Origin: Paractinoplanes aksuensis
GTDB lineage: Bacteria > Actinomycetota > Actinomycetes > Mycobacteriales > Micromonosporaceae
Length of the DNA: 64,000 nucleotides
Direction of reading: 5' to 3'
Assembly (NCBI RefSeq): GCF_024137025.1
Contig: NZ_JAMYJR010000003.1
Span: 248,001 to 312,000, forward strand
Under the pieces are notes generated by a model. It had not been told where the DNA came from. It made no database searches and saw only the letters and a list, made by a program, of their open reading frames with translations. Both the position numbers and the translations under genes were made by a program. Of the stretch, positions 4,081-12,364 are shown one piece after another. Each line of letters opens with the position of its first letter. The stretch's first letter is position 1.

Positions 4081-4872
4081 TCAGAGGGCGTCGAAGGGGA
4101 CCGAGTCGTACGCCTCGCCCAGCAGTTCGGCCAGCTTGTCGCCGGCGGAATAGCTCAGGTCGTCGATCGAGGCGATCTCCTGCCGGGCCGTCCGCGAGTT
4201 GACCGCGACCGCCGCCGTGAAGTCCAGCAGTTCGGACATCGGCACCGGCCGCATCGTCCACGGCACCCCACGCATGGTCAGCGCGATCTGCAGCAGCACC
4301 ATCGTGACGCCGCGCAGCATCGGGGCCTGGGGCCAGATCACCTGGTCTCCGTTGAAGAACGCGACGTTCCAGACCGTGCCCTCGCGCACCAGCCGGTCGG
4401 GGCCGACCGACAGCGCGTCGTCGTAGCCGGCCGCCCGGGCCAGCCGCTGCGCCCGCCACAGGCCCATCGTGGACGCGTGCTTGTGCTCGGGCCAGTCCCG
4501 CCGGAAATCGGGGTCGATGCGCACCCGCAACGGCGCCGCGGGTTCGGCGGGCGCGGGGTCGGCCACGGCCACCACCACGTCGGGCGGGCCGTCGGGGTCG
4601 GCGCCGGGCACGTACGACACCCGGACCGTCGCGTCCCGGGTGTCACCGAGCGCCCGCAGGATCAACTCGCGCAGCCGGTGCTCGTCGTCGAGTTCGGCCC
4701 GCCAGCCGAAGAACTCCTCGTTGCCGTCGGCCAGGCGGGCGAAGTGCAGCCCCAGACCGCGTACGGCCCGGTCGCGCACCTGCATCGAGGTGAAGTGCCC
4801 GTAGTTCACCGAGGCCAGCCGGTGGGTCTCGGCAAGATCCGGGGTCCGGCCGTTCAACTCGATGTTCCGCAC
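4081..4872 (-). CDS. Aminotransferase class IV family protein
   Basis: A 263-residue PLP enzyme of the branched-chain aminotransferase / aminodeoxychorismate lyase fold. The likely Schiff-base lysine is K131 in EHKHASTMG, followed by the family signature of a conserved aromatic/Asp pair (AGYDDALSV), then LVREGTVWNVAFF and the cofactor-binding LRGVTM loop. The substrate cannot be read from sequence; the protein is shorter than IlvE (about 300-360), closer to aminodeoxychorismate lyase-like members. Its start overlaps the end of the upstream DUF72 gene by 19 nt, so the two are cotranscribed. Confidence 0.85.
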   Translation of the reverse strand: MRNIELNGRTPDLAETHRLASVNYGHFTSMQVRDRAVRGLGLHFARLADGNEEFFGWRAELDDEHRLRELILRALGDTRDATVRVSYVPGADPDGPPDVVVAVADPAPAEPAAPLRVRIDPDFRRDWPEHKHASTMGLWRAQRLARAAGYDDALSVGPDRLVREGTVWNVAFFNGDQVIWPQAPMLRGVTMVLLQIALTMRGVPWTMRPVPMSELLDFTAAVAVNSRTARQEIASIDDLSYSAGDKLAELLGEAYDSVPFDAL

Positions 4873-5648
4873 GGTCTCACCTTAGGACGAGGCACCCGGG
4901 TGGTGGCCAGGCCCCGTCGCCCGGCTGCGGCGGCCATCACTCCCGCGTCGATCACCGCGGCGCCGCCCGGATCGTTGTTGAAAAAGACAAAAGCTTCCCG
5001 TACGCAGGACAGACGCTCCACCCACGACCGGAGCGCGACCTTCCCGTAGCGCGGCCACGGCCGGGCCCGTCCCTCGTGCAGCCGCAGGTAGACGAAGTCG
5101 GCCGTGTCCCACCGGGGAGTGACGGGCCGGCTTCCACGGTCGGCCCAGCACAGCGCCGCCCCGTGGCGCGTGAGCAGCTTCCGGCAGTCCTCGGTCCACC
5201 ACGTGTCGTGCCGGGGCTCGACCGCGACCCGCACCCCGGCCGGGACCAGGCTCAGCGTTTCGTCGAGCGCGCCCAGATCGGCCTTCAGGTTCGGCGGCAA
5301 CTGCAGCAGCACCGGCCCGAGCTTGCCGCCGAGCCCGCTCGCCCGGTCGAAGAACCGCGCCACCGGCTCCCGCGGGTCCTTGAGGCGCTTGATGTGGGTC
5401 AGGTACCGGCTCATCTTCACCGCCACGCAGAAGTCGTCCGGGGTGCGCTCGCGCCACTGCTCGAAGATCGATTTCTCCGGCAGCCGGTAGAACGCGTTGT
5501 TGACCTCCACGGTCGCGAACCGCTCGGCGTAGTGCTCCAGCCACCGGCGCTGGGGCAGCCCGGCCGGATACAGGTAGCCGGTGTCGTCCCCGCCCCGCTC
5601 CGGCCGCCAGTCGCGGTACTGCCAGCCCGAGGTCCCGATCCGCAGCAT
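4854..5648 (-). CDS. DUF72 family protein (YecE-like)
   Basis: A 264-residue TIM-barrel-like DUF72 protein. Family motifs are clear: the N-terminal LRIGTSGWQYRDW, VEVNNAFYRLP, then KMSRYLTHIKRL, GPVLLQLPPN and the C-terminal VFFNND. The biochemical function of the family is not established. It is first in a two-gene unit with the aminotransferase downstream and is divergent from the small repeat-peptide gene at 5740, sharing a 91-bp promoter region. Confidence 0.88.
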   Translation of the reverse strand: MLRIGTSGWQYRDWRPERGGDDTGYLYPAGLPQRRWLEHYAERFATVEVNNAFYRLPEKSIFEQWRERTPDDFCVAVKMSRYLTHIKRLKDPREPVARFFDRASGLGGKLGPVLLQLPPNLKADLGALDETLSLVPAGVRVAVEPRHDTWWTEDCRKLLTRHGAALCWADRGSRPVTPRWDTADFVYLRLHEGRARPWPRYGKVALRSWVERLSCVREAFVFFNNDPGGAAVIDAGVMAAAAGRRGLATTRVPRPKVRPCGTSS

Positions 5649-5739
5649 CCCCGGCGGATACCCGCGTCACACCCGGTTAGACCGGTTGATCAGGGGGTAC
5701 CTCGCCGTCGCTGTCTTTTCCACCGAATAAGGAGTTCTC

Positions 5740-5925
5740 ATGTCTCTCAGCGACGACGACATCACCTCGGCCTCGGGCACCGGCGCGGGCGAGGGCCCGG
5801 CTGACGGTGGCGCGAACCCGGGCGGCCACGACGGCGGCGCGGACGGCTCGGCGGGCGAGGGCCCGGCTGACGGTGGCGCGAACCCGGACGGCCACGACGG
5901 CGGCGCCGACGGCACCGCGTCCTGA
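5740..5925 (+). CDS. Small Gly/Asp-rich repeat peptide; possible modified-peptide precursor
   Basis: A 61-residue peptide with a strong ribosome site (AAGGAG, 6 nt before the ATG). The first 16 residues (MSLSDDDITSASGTGA) look like a short leader. The remainder is two tandem 22-residue units that differ at two positions, each beginning GEGPADGGAN and containing GHDGGADG. There are no Cys, Trp or aromatic residues, so ordinary folding is unlikely. The two 66-bp DNA copies are also nearly identical, which points to a recent duplication. The stop is 2 nt before the ATG of a JmjC/cupin-type oxygenase. The repeats contain Asn, His and Asp, the residues such oxygenases hydroxylate in known cases. 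A RiPP-like precursor role is inference. Confidence 0.68.
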   Translation: MSLSDDDITSASGTGAGEGPADGGANPGGHDGGADGSAGEGPADGGANPDGHDGGADGTAS

Positions 5926-5927
5926 CA

Positions 5928-7178
5928 ATGTCCGGGCTGACTGACGACGCGCCGGGCGGCTCCCGCCCGGCGCTCGCCCGGGCCGTGGCCGCCGAGCCCG
6001 GCAAGTTCGCCGCCGCGTACTGGGGAAAGGCTCCTCTGTTGTCCCGGGCCGGCGAACTGGCCGGGCCCGACGGCTTCGCCGACCTGCTCTCCCCGGACGC
6101 CGTCGACGAACTGCTGAGCCGGCGCGGCCTGCGCACCCCGTTCCTGCGCGTCGCCCAGCAGGGCAAGGTGCTGCCGGCCACCCGCTTCACCGGCGGTGGC
6201 GGCGCGGGCGCCGAGATCAGCGACCAGGTCCAGGACGACCAGGTCATGCAGCTGTACGCCGGTGGTGCCACTCTGGTGCTGCAGGGCCTGCACCGCCTGT
6301 GGCCCCCACTGATCGACTACGCCCGGCAACTGGGCGCCGAGCTGCGCCGCCCGCTGCAGGTCAACGCGTACCTGACCCCGCCCGGCAGCCAGGGCTTCAG
6401 CACCCACTACGACACCCACGACGTCTTCGTGCTGCAGGTCGACGGCACCAAACGCTGGCGCCTGCACGCCCCCGTGCTGCCGGACCCGCTCGAGAAGCAG
6501 GCGTGGGGCGGCCGTGCCGACGAGGTGTCGGCCACCGCCCAGGGCGAACCGGACATGGATGTGGTGCTCGCCCCCGGCGACGCCCTCTACCTGCCGCGCG
6601 GCTGGCTGCACTCGGCCGAGGCCCAGGGCACCCGCTCCCTGCACCTGACCTTCGGCGTCCGCGCCCTGACCCGCTACGCCGTGGTCGAGGAACTGCTGAC
6701 CCTGGCCGCCGACGACGCCCGACTGCGCGCCACCCTGCCGTACGCGATGGACGTCTCCGACCCCGACGCGATCGAGCCCGAGCTCACGGAAACGGTCGAG
6801 GCTCTGCGCGAGTGGCTGAACACGGTCGAGCCGGCCGAGGTGGCGGCCCGCCTGCGCGCCCGCGACTGGCCCTCAGCCCGCCCCGAGCCGGTCAGCCCCC
6901 TGGCCCAGCTCGACTTCGCCGCCGCCCTCACCGCCGGCGACGAGGTCCGTGCCCGCGAAGGCCTGCGGTGGCAGCTGAACGAGGACGGCCCCGACCACGT
7001 CGCGCTACGCCTGGTCGACCGCACGATGCGCTTCCCGTCGTACTGCGCCCCGGCCCTGCGAGCCGCTCTGGCCGGTGCCGCGGTGCGGGTGGCCGATCTG
7101 CCTCTCGACGACGACGCCGACCGCCTGGTGCTGGCCCGGCGTCTGCTCAAAGAGGCTCTGGTCGTCCCGGCCCGCTAG
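5928..7178 (+). CDS. JmjC/cupin-4-type Fe(II)/2-oxoglutarate oxygenase
   Basis: A 416-residue protein of the ribosomal-oxygenase (YcfD/MINA53/NO66) type. Iron ligands visible are H160 and D162 in FSTHYDTHDVF and the distal H228 in PRGWLHSAE; K175 in VDGTKRWRLH is a candidate 2-oxoglutarate ligand. The N-terminal FAAAYWGKAPLL matches the family start (W-x-K-x-P), and residues 260-416 form the C-terminal helical/winged-helix part. Relatives hydroxylate His or Arg of ribosomal proteins. Here the gene has no own ribosome site and follows the repeat peptide by 2 nt, so the peptide is a candidate substrate. An alternative is a ribosomal-protein hydroxylase with an unrelated neighbour. Confidence 0.88.
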   Translation: MSGLTDDAPGGSRPALARAVAAEPGKFAAAYWGKAPLLSRAGELAGPDGFADLLSPDAVDELLSRRGLRTPFLRVAQQGKVLPATRFTGGGGAGAEISDQVQDDQVMQLYAGGATLVLQGLHRLWPPLIDYARQLGAELRRPLQVNAYLTPPGSQGFSTHYDTHDVFVLQVDGTKRWRLHAPVLPDPLEKQAWGGRADEVSATAQGEPDMDVVLAPGDALYLPRGWLHSAEAQGTRSLHLTFGVRALTRYAVVEELLTLAADDARLRATLPYAMDVSDPDAIEPELTETVEALREWLNTVEPAEVAARLRARDWPSARPEPVSPLAQLDFAAALTAGDEVRAREGLRWQLNEDGPDHVALRLVDRTMRFPSYCAPALRAALAGAAVRVADLPLDDDADRLVLARRLLKEALVVPAR

Positions 7179-7883
7179 TCAGGCCGTACGCAGGGCGGCG
7201 ACCAGCAGGCCGGCCGTGACCAGGCCGGTGATCAGCACGGTGGCGACCGTTGTGGCATCCAGGCCGGTGCCGCGGCGGTCGGCCACGCGTTTGGCGCCGA
7301 CGACCGCCAGCACCGGGCAGGCCAGCAGGGCCAGCAGAGCGAGCACGGGCAGAGCGTCCTGCCAAGTGCCGTCGGCGGTGGTGTCGCCGGCCTGGCGCAG
7401 CACCTGGTTGAGGAACGCGCCGGCCACACCACCCAGGACGCCGAAGACGATGAACAGCACCTTCACGCCGCCGGTGATCGGGCGGGCCGGGGCTGTGTAT
7501 TTCACCTTTGTGGCAACCTCGTCGAGGTAGTCCTCGGCGTCGCGGTCGGTGCGCTGGCGGGGGATCGAGGCGGGCGGCATCATGCGGCCGTAGCGTTCGG
7601 CGACCGGGCCCACCTTGTGCACGTACTCCGACCAGAGCCCGGCCGCGCGCGCGTCGACCTCCTCGACCGTGCGCTGCGCGGCCACGACGTCCCGCTTCGC
7701 CTCTTCGACGGCCTGGCGGGCGCCCGCCACGGCCTCGTCGGCGGCCGCCAGGCGGCCGTCGTGCCAGCGCACGGCCTCGGCCCGTTGGGTCGCGGCCTCC
7801 TCGTCCAGGGTGGTCAGTCGTCGTAGGACGCTGCGGTAGTCCGCGGTGGCGAAGTCGGCCGGCTGCAGTCCGCTCTCGTTCAC
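7179..7883 (-). CDS. Coiled-coil membrane protein, last gene of the FtsK-type operon
   Basis: A 234-residue protein starting at a GTG that overlaps the ATPase stop by 4 nt (GTGA). Residues about 15-100 are charged, Ala/Glu-rich and heptad-like, so probably a coiled coil; residues 140-234 hold about three hydrophobic segments (VKVLFIVFGVLGGVAGAFL, LPVLALLALLACPVLAVVG and TVATVLITGLVTAGLLVAA). No named domain recognised. Tight coupling suggests it anchors or gates the ATPase at the membrane. Confidence 0.75.
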   Translation of the reverse strand: MNESGLQPADFATADYRSVLRRLTTLDEEAATQRAEAVRWHDGRLAAADEAVAGARQAVEEAKRDVVAAQRTVEEVDARAAGLWSEYVHKVGPVAERYGRMMPPASIPRQRTDRDAEDYLDEVATKVKYTAPARPITGGVKVLFIVFGVLGGVAGAFLNQVLRQAGDTTADGTWQDALPVLALLALLACPVLAVVGAKRVADRRGTGLDATTVATVLITGLVTAGLLVAALRTA

Positions 7884-10510
7884 GACCCAGCTCCGTACGG
7901 GATGATGACCTCGGCCCCGCGGTGGACCGAGCGGTCGAAGTGCAGCGCCCGCCACGGCCGCGGATACCACGACGGCGTGGTCGTGCCCGGATAGAACGGG
8001 GACAGCTCGCTGCCGTGCACGTCGAGGGCCACCCACGAGCCGATCGGGTCGGTGCGTGACGCCGGGCCGCCCAGCGCGTCGCGCAGCAGCGCCGCCCCGC
8101 GCCACCAGCCCAGCACGTGGATGCGCCTTTCCGGGCCCTGGCGCAGGATCGTGCGCAGTTGGTCGGCCGCGCTCTTGCCGCCGGGCAGCGCGTCGGCCGC
8201 ATAGATCAGCAGGAAGTGCGGGCGGTCGGCCGGCCACGACGCCTCCGACTCGGCCGCCGCGTCCTCGAGCACCCAGTCCGCGTTGTCGTGCTCGTACCAG
8301 CCGCACTCGGGCAGTTGGGCGCAGAGCGCGGCCGCGGCCGGGCGGGCGTCGGGGTCGAGGCAGAGGATCGAGTAGCGGGCGCCCTCGGGCGGGAACTGGG
8401 CGGCCAGCGACAGCGCAGCCGTGGCGATGATCGCGCACGCCTCCTCGGTGCGGGTGCCCAGCACGGCCAGGTTGCGGCCGGGCGCGCGCCGCAGCACCGT
8501 CCGGGCCGAGCGGGCCTCGACGTCGATCGTCTCGCCCAGCAGCACGACCGGGGCCGGCATCTGCTCGGCCGGGGTCAGCCGCCGGAAGTCGGGGCTGTCG
8601 GCCAGCCGCGGCACCACGTCACCGTCGAACAGCCGGGGCGGATGGTCGTCGGGCCGCCGCCGCCACAGCCGATGTTGGAGCGCGTTCCAGCGTTCGCGGT
8701 CGCCGGCGGCCGGCACCCGGACGACCCGGTTGGCCTCGACCGCGCCCGAGTCGGCGTTGACCACCGCGTGATAGCGGGGCAGCGACTCGGCCGCGGTGTT
8801 CTGCTCGGCCAGCACGCGTCGGGCCCGGGGCAGCGCGATGCGCAACGAGAACTGGGCGACCAGGGCCGGGCGGCCCCACAGCGCCTCGATGCCGGACACG
8901 TCCTGGCTGGCCAGAATCAGGTGGATGCCCTGCGAGCGGCCCCGGCGGGCCAGGTCCTCGAGCAGGTCGACGGCCTCTTTCTCGACCGCGTCACGACCCG
9001 AGAGCAGCACCTGGAACTCGTCGATGACGGCCACGATCCGCGGCCACGAGCCCTCCGGGTCCTCGGCCCGTAGCTCGGCCAGGTTGGTGACCTCGTGCTG
9101 CTTGGCCGCGTCGGCCCGGCGGCGCAGCTCCTCGCCCAGGAAGCGCAGCAGGGCCAGCCCGAACTCGCGGTCGGTGTTGACGTTGACGCCGACCAGCCGC
9201 ACGTGCGGCAGCCAGGTCTGGTCGCGGCGGCCCGGCGCGAACCGGGCGAACGACACGCCCTCCTTGAAGTCGAGCAGATAGAAGGCCAGCTCGGCGGGGG
9301 AGTAGCGGGCGGCCAACGCGCCCATCCAGGCGTAGATCAGGTTGGTCTTGCCGGTGCCCGAGGGGCCGGCGATCAGAGCGTGCGGCGGGTAGTCGCTCAA
9401 GGTCACCGGCACCGGTACGCCCAACGGGCTGTCCCCGAGCGGGGCGGTCAGCCCGGTGGCCGACGTCTCCTGCCACTCCACCTGCGGCAACAGGCTGTCC
9501 AGGGCCACCGGGGCGGGACCGGCGGCGACCGCCTCGGCGATCCGTCGGCAAGCCGCGGCCACCACCGGCTGCGGCGGGCCCGGATCCAGGCGTACGGGAA
9601 GAGAGCCCGCACTGCTCATGCGGGCCCGGTCGCCGGGCGCGGCCGTGATGAACTCGATGCCCTCGCCGGCCGGCACCGGCATCCCCTGGATCACCAGGTG
9701 GACGCCGCAGGCGGCCCCGGTGCGCAGCAGCCGCTGCAGGTGGGCCTGCTCGGCCCGGCTGAGCTCACCCACGCCGAGCAGCACGGCGATCCGCCACGGT
9801 TCGGGCCGCCGGTGGGTGGCCAGGTTGAGCTCGCGCAGCGACGAGTACTCGCCCGCCAGCACCGTCTCGTTGATCCGCCGGACCTGGCCGGTCAGGTCGT
9901 CGAGCAGCGCGCCCAGCCCGCCCGGCCCGACGAAGGTGAGCACGTTGGCCGGGGCCAGCGGCGCGAACCGGGCCAGCCCGCCGCCGAGGTGCTCGGGGTC
10001 GTACCCGATGATCTGCACGCCGCCCGGCGGGGCCGTGCCCAGCGCCCGCAGCAGCAGCCCGGCCACCACCTCGTCGCCGGTCGCCCGGTCGCCGCGGACC
10101 ACCACGTGACCGCGGTCGAGCAGCGGCACCAGGGCCGGCACGTCCTCGGGGTGCGGCAGCAGCAGCCGGCCGATCCGCAGTTCGGCCGCCTGGTCGTGCG
10201 GCGTGGGCTGCCAGTCGTCCCAGGGGTCACCGGCCGCGCCCGGGGCGGCCCGGTCGGCCGCGGCCGCGGCGGCCTCGGCGTACGCGGCCAGATCGGTCTT
10301 GTGCTGCTGGTCGATCTCGGCCAGCCGGGTGTCGCGGGCCGCGGCCACCTTGTGCCGGCGCGCCTCGGCGGCCTCGGTGACCCGGCGCAGACGGTCGACC
10401 GCACGCGTGTAGCCGGCGCGGGCCGCGTCGAGGGCGGTCGACGCCGCGCCGAGCGCGTGCGACAGCCCGGCCCGGATGTCCATCACCTGCTGGGAGGTCG
10501 AGTCAGGCAT
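7880..10510 (-). CDS. FtsK/SpoIIIE-type P-loop ATPase
   Basis: An 876-residue ATPase. The N-terminus (residues 10-85) is a predicted coiled coil. The FtsK/SpoIIIE core has Walker A GPSGTGKT at 382-389 and Walker B IVAVIDEFQ at 492-500, followed by DLARRGRSQGIHLILASQ, the typical FtsK sensor segment. A second, degenerate ATPase-like region follows (VVLLGETIDVEAR... near 640). This resembles EccC of type VII secretion in layout, but no transmembrane segment is in this protein. It lies between two helical genes with 4-nt overlap downstream and 33 nt upstream, so it is one operon. Substrate (DNA or protein) is not evident. Confidence 0.85.
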   Translation of the reverse strand: MPDSTSQQVMDIRAGLSHALGAASTALDAARAGYTRAVDRLRRVTEAAEARRHKVAAARDTRLAEIDQQHKTDLAAYAEAAAAAADRAAPGAAGDPWDDWQPTPHDQAAELRIGRLLLPHPEDVPALVPLLDRGHVVVRGDRATGDEVVAGLLLRALGTAPPGGVQIIGYDPEHLGGGLARFAPLAPANVLTFVGPGGLGALLDDLTGQVRRINETVLAGEYSSLRELNLATHRRPEPWRIAVLLGVGELSRAEQAHLQRLLRTGAACGVHLVIQGMPVPAGEGIEFITAAPGDRARMSSAGSLPVRLDPGPPQPVVAAACRRIAEAVAAGPAPVALDSLLPQVEWQETSATGLTAPLGDSPLGVPVPVTLSDYPPHALIAGPSGTGKTNLIYAWMGALAARYSPAELAFYLLDFKEGVSFARFAPGRRDQTWLPHVRLVGVNVNTDREFGLALLRFLGEELRRRADAAKQHEVTNLAELRAEDPEGSWPRIVAVIDEFQVLLSGRDAVEKEAVDLLEDLARRGRSQGIHLILASQDVSGIEALWGRPALVAQFSLRIALPRARRVLAEQNTAAESLPRYHAVVNADSGAVEANRVVRVPAAGDRERWNALQHRLWRRRPDDHPPRLFDGDVVPRLADSPDFRRLTPAEQMPAPVVLLGETIDVEARSARTVLRRAPGRNLAVLGTRTEEACAIIATAALSLAAQFPPEGARYSILCLDPDARPAAAALCAQLPECGWYEHDNADWVLEDAAAESEASWPADRPHFLLIYAADALPGGKSAADQLRTILRQGPERRIHVLGWWRGAALLRDALGGPASRTDPIGSWVALDVHGSELSPFYPGTTTPSWYPRPWRALHFDRSVHRGAEVIIPYGAGS

Positions 10511-11696: not shown

Positions 11697-11993
11697 CGCC
11701 GTTGTGCCTCCTGCTAAGTGGAACCCGACTCTTCACGCCAGACTACTGCCACGCCCTTTCCCGGCTGCTCGGGCCGCCCCTTGGCCGGTCAACCCGATCG
11801 TCCCTATTGGAAAGGGTCATACCCACCCGTCTCGGCGCGGCCCCATGGGTCCGAGGTTCGACCGCTGACTGAACAGGAATGAATCCTGAGAGTTACTGCC
11901 CACCGACCCCGAGCGGAACCATCAGGCCTGCTCACGAGCGATCTTTTCACCCCTGCCAAGCGTGGATCATGCCCCATCGCACCCACCGTGCCG

Positions 11994-12190
11994 GGCCGAA
12001 CCCCCACTGCGCCTGCTGGGCCGAACCCCCACTGCGCCTGCTGGGCCGAACCCACCGCGCCTGCTGGGCCGAACCCCCACTGCGCCTGCTGGGCCGAACC
12101 CCCACTGCGCCTGCTGGGCCGAACCCACCGCGCCTGCTGGGCCGAACCCACTGCGCCGATCGTGTCGGGCCGAACCCCACGCGCCGATCG
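11994..12190. repeat. Tandem 25/25/23-bp repeat array
   Basis: About eight head-to-tail copies of a unit beginning GGGCCGAACCC and ending GCGCCTGCT. Units are 25 or 23 bp and follow the order 25-25-23-25-25-23, a 73-bp higher-order period, before decaying into variants ending GATCGTGTC. Copies are nearly identical and contiguous with no unique spacers, so this is not a CRISPR array. Function unknown. Confidence 0.9.
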
Positions 12191-12364
12191 TGTCGGGCCG
12201 ATCGTGCTGCGCTGACCGTGCTGCGCTGACCACGCGCACCTCGTTGCGCCCGTGCGGCAGTAGTCAAGCCGGAAAAGTCCGGTCCTGTGGAGAGCGAAGC
12301 TTTGTGGACGACGCGATCGATCTCGTCGAGAACGCGTAGGGTCGGGCCCGCCCCCAGGCCGGGC

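Follow-up and report, generated by a model that had tools for sequence, protein, structure and literature searches.

Hydroxylation of a ribosomal precursor peptide by a JmjC protein has been described for the biphenomycin ornithine hydroxylases BipG and BpmG (available parts of PMC12707348 and PMC12257519), and the accessible text of PMC13097080 ascribes β-hydroxylation of Asp on a precursor peptide to SmaO. In proteusin-like clusters of sponge symbionts, a cupin-4 enzyme is found next to a leader of the RiPP type (available part of PMC9426513), and RRE-fused PF08007 proteins, with RRE-like folds, have been described from fish and algae, with bacterial homologues in RiPP-like contexts (accessible portion of PMC12710340). 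In NO66, the substrate His is held by Tyr328 and Ser421, as stated in the available text of PMC9994133. The locus described here resembles these systems in part. Its oxygenase shares with NO66/MINA53 (RIOX1/RIOX2) and YcfD the whole-chain fold as compared with Foldseek, the Fe(II) triad, the Lys for 2-oxoglutarate (2OG) and a Tyr residue, Tyr148, that corresponds to Tyr328 of NO66; in the reading that we favour, it would act on a peptide as do BipG and BpmG, and at Asp as does SmaO.

The DNA that we analysed, a stretch of 64,000 nucleotides of Paractinoplanes aksuensis that spans positions 248,001–312,000 of its contig (the window), contains a gene for a small repeat peptide followed by a gene for a JmjC_2 oxygenase (Table 1). 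As had been predicted, the peptide comprises 61 residues and is preceded by a strong ribosome-binding site, and the JmjC gene begins 2 nt after it: the stop codon of the peptide gene (5923–5925) is followed by CA and then by the ATG of the JmjC gene. Upstream of the pair are minus-strand genes for a DUF72 protein (4854–5648) and an aminotransferase-IV-like protein (4081–4872), both identified with Pfam, and downstream are a minus-strand ORF that starts directly and then a gene for an FtsK/SpoIIIE-type ATPase. Given that minus-strand genes lie on both sides, no other gene on its strand adjoins the peptide-JmjC pair. The DUF72, aminotransferase IV and FtsK-like genes were the only ones identified by Pfam beside the pair; the ATP-grasp, Lan and DUF692 enzymes that accompany the precursors of graspetides, lanthipeptides and MNIO RiPPs were not among the genes so identified. 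A scan of positions 5500–7400 for promoters and terminators found none. The ATPase gene (7880–10510, minus strand), presumably of a kind met in type VII-like secretion loci, belongs to a cluster that was present in 7 of 51 loci including the window. Elsewhere in the window, we observed a gene for a SecA-type ATPase (147–1871), possibly an accessory SecA, as well as short repeats resembling GFGPAGAVG and AEPPLRLLGRTPTAP in overlapping frames at 11900–12300.

Table 1 Features of the peptide-JmjC pair in the window.
Feature	Position	Strand	Basis or remark
Repeat peptide gene, 61 aa, ATG start	5740..5925	+	MSLSDDDITSASGTGAG plus two units; kept in relatives
Ribosome-binding site AAGGAG of peptide gene	5729..5734	+	Sequence; five bases ahead of start
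Leader MSLSDDDIT, acidic L-x-D-D-D-I pattern, predicted recognition sequence	5740..5766	+	Pattern counts in N-termini of related peptides
Repeat unit 1, EGPADGGANPGGHDGGADGSA	5791..5853	+	Sequence
Repeat unit 2, EGPADGGANPDGHDGGADGTA	5857..5919	+	Sequence
JmjC_2 oxygenase, NO66/ROX fold, 416 aa	5928..7178	+	Pfam, alignment, AF2 model, Foldseek
H160-x-D162 of Fe(II) triad	6405..6413	+	Invariant in 70-sequence alignment
H228 of Fe(II) triad	6609..6611	+	Invariant in 70-sequence alignment
C-terminal region in place of NO66 winged-helix domain, proposed leader binder	6879..7169	+	Model secondary structure; whole-chain NO66 match

The oxygenase matched JmjC_2 (PF08007) in Pfam with an E value of 7e-30 and Cupin_8 with one of 2.4e-09. 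Its AF2 model (mean pLDDT 93.8) was matched best in Foldseek by NO66 (4ccn) over the whole chain (E 9.2e-30, TM 0.66/0.61, rmsd 7.1). The iron triad H160, D162 and H228, predicted to be intact, proved invariant in the alignment of 70 sequences, as were K175, N146 and Y148, and G243 was conserved in at least 90% of them. The protein has the JmjC fold, the HxD...H motif and the 2OG-binding Lys of JmjC_2 (PF08007) 2OG oxygenases, and the invariance of the iron triad and 2OG-site residues suggests that catalysis is retained. The domain names of NO66 (JmjC, helical and C-terminal winged helix) are given to the matched regions as an assumption of ours, and the NO66 numbering H340, D342, K355 and H405, with residue positions counted from H405, is likewise assumed. 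In a pairwise alignment with NO66, Y148 fell on Tyr328 and G243 on Ser421; of the Ser and Tyr that serve the substrate His in the histidyl hydroxylases NO66 and MINA53, Tyr148 is thus present and the place of the Ser is taken by Gly243. In the JmjC protein, we identified no basic pocket for Asp. Residues 324–414 of the model form a winged-helix-like counterpart of the NO66 winged helix, and this C-terminal region gave no match in Pfam up to an E value of 10. The RRE-like folds described for PF08007 proteins in the available text of PMC12710340 make leader binding by this region, in the manner of the PqqD-like RRE of RRE-dependent RiPPs, an attractive possibility, for which the Pfam search and the fused-chain model described below yielded no support.

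Searches of Pfam, NCBIfam and PHROGs with the repeat peptide yielded no match. Its two units are 21 residues each, recur with a period of 66 nt (22 residues) and differ at 4 of 63 nt, with two of the differences at codon position 3, one at position 1 and one at position 2. The original prediction cautioned that the duplication might be recent and unselected. The near-identity of the two copies in the window stands, but the number of units of the searched form ranges from 1 to 6 among relatives (297 over 91 loci), and pN was smaller than pS in all 169 pairs compared among 78 Micromonosporaceae peptides (median pS 0.35, pN 0.04, pN/pS 0.10), although this ratio overstates constraint somewhat, because only pairs of the same length with an amino-acid identity of at least 80% were compared and the identity cut itself depresses pN. 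The figures for the three codon positions over the 297 units (0.07, 0.08 and 0.30) also overstate constraint somewhat, because the amino-acid pattern used for selection fixes or narrows 15 of the 21 positions. The occurrence of the peptide in relatives, the range of unit number and the pN/pS value led us to reject an unselected duplication confined to the window. Complete peptides of Micromonosporaceae are 59 to 222 aa long with a variable number of units, and most of them retain MxL[SN]DDD[IM] and EGPADGGA-x5-DGGADG; even the most divergent variants in the family have Asp at these places (EGPLDAGADD...EHDGGADG). Overall, two kinds of peptide were distinguished: kind A, with EGPADGG...DGGADG repeats, and kind B, with plainly Asp-rich, DGTDGDATD-like cores such as DGTDGDATDGTDGDA and a leader like L[ST]D[DE][DE]IETVW.

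A scan of GTDB genomes yielded 336 relatives of the JmjC, the best 80 of which were retained, all of them Micromonosporaceae by name. In 79 of these best 80 loci, the JmjC is immediately preceded by a complete or partial peptide like that of the window, with masked bases within the peptide in one case and a contig end cutting it in another; the available sequence of the 80th locus begins 66 nt before the match. In 74 of the 94 pairs measured, the spacing from peptide to JmjC fell between –4 and 14 nt, with starts chosen by rule. In a sample of 150 genomes of the family, 87 contained the JmjC (threshold E <1e-90), 79 contained the repeat as an exact DNA pattern, the reversed form of which gave zero matches, and 75 contained both (Fisher p 2e-24); an 88th genome (G385) possesses only a distant JmjC relative. 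In each of the 12 genomes that contain the JmjC but gave no match to the exact pattern, a variant peptide precedes the JmjC, for example EGPADAGAGQSVDPQEQDGGADAGAD. Among the matches listed, taken at one place per genome, the pattern adjoins the JmjC on the same strand at –13 to 196 nt in 46 of 51 pattern genomes; this comparison did not extend to 27 of the 75 genomes that contain both JmjC and pattern. The other five are G469, G458 and G369, which lack the JmjC and in which the matching frames are unlike the peptide; G465, where a variant peptide (L172) additionally adjoins the JmjC; and G451, where the JmjC has no peptide next to it and two DDDIT peptides are unlinked. Absence of the peptide beside homologous oxygenases, which the original prediction had named as evidence against itself, was looked for; the two genes were instead found to co-occur, with variant peptides filling the gaps.

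The association extends beyond the family. PF08007 was detected in 61 of 346 genomes of a sample of Actinomycetota, and the loci studied comprised 30 from this search and 40 further stretches containing partly the same genes, with matches below about 59 bits mostly left out. In a JmjC tree of 71 rows, from which rows shorter than 330 aa (L114 and L138), the three ORFs of L140 and L149 were excluded, the window enzyme belongs to a clade of 63 rows (support 100/93), 24 from Micromonosporaceae and 39 from elsewhere. A kin peptide is located directly upstream in 36 of the 39 fetched JmjCs of this clade from outside Micromonosporaceae; the three rows counted as lacking one are L135, in which the contig ends, and L130 and L122, in which none was recognisable. 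Rows with a kind-A peptide (38) form one clade together with L122, and those with kind B (21) together with the odd L133 make up nearly all the rest. The labels for peptide kind required 7 changes on the tree, compared with a mean of 29 after shuffling, and none of 200 shuffles gave a value as low. A narrower automatic criterion, before the loci were read singly, assigned a peptide to 15 of 23 JmjC genes, 1 of 114 other long ORFs and 1 of 11 weak JmjC genes. The pair is therefore a real, widely conserved two-gene unit of actinobacteria, in which a short ribosomal precursor and a modifying-type enzyme are adjacent and conserved together, as in RiPP loci. The JmjC had no match in a phage collection, and plasmid records with a match numbered 141 and 125, all but one at less than 60% identity.

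Other JmjC loci showed arrangements of their own. A short peptide ending in GGRSDGND, GRSDGND or GGRSDMNDS is encoded ahead of three distant JmjC_2 genes (L112, L116 and L117) in large genomes of the same class, and such GGRSDxND-like peptides (kind C), associated with three JmjCs outside the clade, possibly constitute a second precursor family; no peptide was recognised for the remaining JmjCs outside the clade. Locus L140 has two PF08007 matches and a third, weak JmjC-like ORF within 15 kb, together with a TfuA-like gene (PF07812) and a 41-aa peptide, and has the appearance of a thioamide-type RiPP cluster that includes JmjC enzymes. A 50-aa peptide containing HYDHDPSDPAHIGHDTDPTDCCDH, which looks metal-binding, precedes a paralogous JmjC in L165, and a nitroreductase-family protein (PF00881), which we take to be SagB-like, adjoins a JmjC paralogue in L166.

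The NH2-terminal pattern [LVI]x?[DNE][DENQA][DEQ][IMFLV] was present in 89 of 94 kind-A peptides and 22 of 22 kind-B peptides (the latter including the odd L133), versus 12 of the 495 genes predicted in 51 of the loci (among which are a few peptides, three by a rough rule); this pattern was devised after the peptides had been seen, several NH2-termini were picked by hand, and the counted sequences are related. Peptides whose cores differ in kind and number thus share the pattern, although the leader is loose, with five kind-A peptides lacking it, and over the first nine codons of the 78 Micromonosporaceae peptides amino-acid changes exceeded silent ones (mean of 3.9 versus 1.3 per pair). As judged from these sequences, the leader is defined by an acidic pattern and not by one fixed sequence. 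The exact DNA pattern for DDDIT had five matches in the window genome, with only that in the window starting a small gene. Modeling of peptide and enzyme as a fused chain with AF2 did not dock the leader (pLDDT block means of 35–41, residues 1–90).

To identify a residue common to the cores, we compared all 116 of them. Asp, Gly and Ala are present in every core, and no other residue is; Asp is the sole usual target of such oxygenases found in all. The original prediction placed His and Asn in every repeat, which is correct for both repeats of the window and does not extend to the family: the residue before DGGADG in the 297 units is His in 193, Gln in 72, Arg in 22, Val in 7, Ala in 2 and Thr in 1, and the N position is occupied by T in 148 units and by N in 136. 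His or Asn, which it named among the possible targets, was not supported as the target, and a shared target of this type was rejected, given that each of the two residues occurs in 5 of 22 kind-B cores, compared with 22 of 22 for Asp. In kind A, Gly follows at least 967 of the approximately 1,030 Asp residues. We therefore favour Asp as the modification site, although with some reserve. Modification of the peptide at another residue (His, Asn, Pro or Ala), or with another outcome (desaturation or backbone cleavage), appears unlikely; oxygenases with the fold of the JmjC hydroxylate His and Arg, FIH takes Asn, Asp and His according to the available text of PMC9994133, and kind-A cores contain His in 82 of 94 cases and Asn in 50, but in kind B even Pro reaches only 18 of 22 cores.

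The JmjC might instead be a ribosomal-protein hydroxylase like NO66 or YcfD, with the small ORF specifying either a leader peptide for its translation or an acidic protein unrelated to it. The nearest solved structures are indeed those of NO66, MINA53 and YcfD, and the ORF is tiny and directly coupled to the JmjC gene. Conservation nevertheless concerns the amino-acid sequence of the peptide and not merely the presence of an ORF, the peptide kind tracks the enzyme tree, and the residue that holds the substrate His in NO66, Ser421, is replaced by Gly in at least 90% of the 70 sequences. Moreover, G451, G473 and Actinoplanes cyaneus (L067) encode extra peptides, with a similar leader and similar repeats, at distances of ~2 kb to >2 Mb from the JmjC. 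Among RiPPs, action of one enzyme on separate substrates is known. Together with this precedent, the unlinked peptides favour a role of the peptide as substrate over one as translational leader, and we consider the ribosomal hydroxylase quite improbable. Two of the unlinked-peptide loci adjoin a DJ-1/AraC-type regulator, and an unlinked DDDIT peptide in L175 has a His-rich insert (HSTHSEHHEHHSHSSHH) between the leader and the repeat as well as one EGPNDGGADPHGTDGGADGGA unit. A role for the peptide as a regulator or structural partner, such as an Asp-rich buffer of Fe/Ca supplying or inhibiting the enzyme, would suit its acidity and the His-rich variant of L175 but is very improbable, given that multiplied cores behind a separate NH2-terminal segment are typical of precursors and that the invariant active-site residues point to retained catalysis. 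We regard action of the JmjC on the peptide as likely.

In many loci, a protein of ~300 aa is encoded after the JmjC on the same strand, and it was found to be Suc_Fer-like (PF06999) in all three examples scanned. In a profile search, this gene was present beside 32 of 35 cassettes outside Micromonosporaceae, compared with 0 of 16 other JmjC ORFs (p 1e-10); the 35 are those with a kind-A, kind-B or L133 peptide and enough downstream sequence, the 16 include L122, L130 and the three ORFs of L140, and L134 (sequence too short), L135 (a ferredoxin is present, the upstream region not visible) and the Micromonosporaceae loci L083 and L090 were left out. Of the 80 named Micromonosporaceae loci and the window, all 77 with room for the gene lacked it, and PF06999 had no match in the window genome, whereas the extra family loci L153 and L155 do have it. 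Alignment of nine examples showed C-X8-C and one His to be invariant, with Asp or Cys at the position of the second His. Aim32, a thioredoxin-like [2Fe-2S] protein of the Suc_Fer-like family, has the motif CX8CXnHX3H, and the function of the thioredoxin-like ferredoxin family is called not well understood in the available text of the same study (PMC8482512). The leader pattern, the kind-B peptides and this third gene go beyond the original prediction.

The original prediction also pointed out that no transporter or protease lies beside the pair. Consistent with this, no transporter, protease or other tailoring gene was recognised among ten recurring neighbour clusters, defined as those present in at least 3 of 51 loci within about 3–5 kb on each side and covered in part by the Pfam scan. 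The protease and transporter that usually, though not universally, serve maturation and export of RiPPs were thus not among these neighbours, which makes an intracellular product plausible.

On the basis of the genes and their order, conservation, co-occurrence, phylogeny, catalytic residues and predicted fold, we propose that the pair is probably a RiPP-like Asp-hydroxylation cassette with an intracellular product, perhaps a metal ligand. The precursor encoded by the small gene would comprise a short leader of acidic character (L-S-D-D-D-I-T), followed by Asp/Gly/Ala cores in tandem. The leader would be bound by the predicted winged-helix-like COOH-terminal domain of the NO66-like JmjC, which, in a reaction dependent on Fe(II), 2OG and O2, would hydroxylate Asp of the cores, most likely at the β-carbon. 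The Suc_Fer-like protein may supply electrons to the iron of the oxygenase or act on the product, with the window lineage doing without it. The product, a poly(β-hydroxyaspartyl) peptide that may bind a metal such as iron or calcium, would be used in the cytoplasm without export, and its hydroxy-Asp repeats with Gly/Ala spacers could serve as a hard-metal ligand. Metal binding is a tentative element of this scheme, to which we give less than even weight; the His-rich variant and the ferredoxin-like partner are compatible with, but do not demonstrate, a function related to metals or redox. More speculatively still, the cassettes might represent a phylum-wide intracellular RiPP-like class in which Asp repeats are β-hydroxylated to an encoded polyhydroxyaspartate that serves as a buffer or carrier of iron or another hard metal under the control of O2, Fe(II) and 2OG, with a thioredoxin-like ferredoxin as redox partner. 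The peptides provide an encoded set of candidate substrates for a bacterial clade of NO66-like oxygenases, the chemistry of which is directly testable. If Asp is repeatedly hydroxylated, the cassettes would constitute a new class of ribosomal metal ligands or of intracellular RiPPs across a phylum, and the thioredoxin-like ferredoxin family would be tied to a defined pathway.

We found no description of a repeat peptide-JmjC system in the open-access literature, subscription journals being mostly outside the scope of the search, and this peptide-modification system of actinobacteria is apparently undescribed. It differs from NO66 in that the enzyme is encoded with a peptide, has Gly for Ser421 and shows 24–25% identity with an rmsd of 5.4–7.1. 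The JmjC step of BipG and BpmG, as described in the available parts of the biphenomycin studies, is one tailoring step among those of an MNIO, a radical SAM enzyme, an arginase, a transporter and a protease and acts on an aromatic/Arg core, whereas none of these partner genes was recognised beside the cassette. SmaO, according to the accessible text of PMC13097080, belongs to a graspetide cluster. The leader of the sponge-symbiont clusters is of the NHLP type and the organisms are different (available part of PMC9426513), and the accessible text of PMC12710340 gives no peptide, motif or gene set for the RRE-fused PF08007 proteins and does not state whether their bacterial homologues include the clade of the window enzyme. 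JmjC enzymes in RiPP pathways, as exemplified by BipG, and β-hydroxylation of Asp on a precursor, as exemplified by SmaO, are thus already known, and the gene content of the cassette described here is its own.
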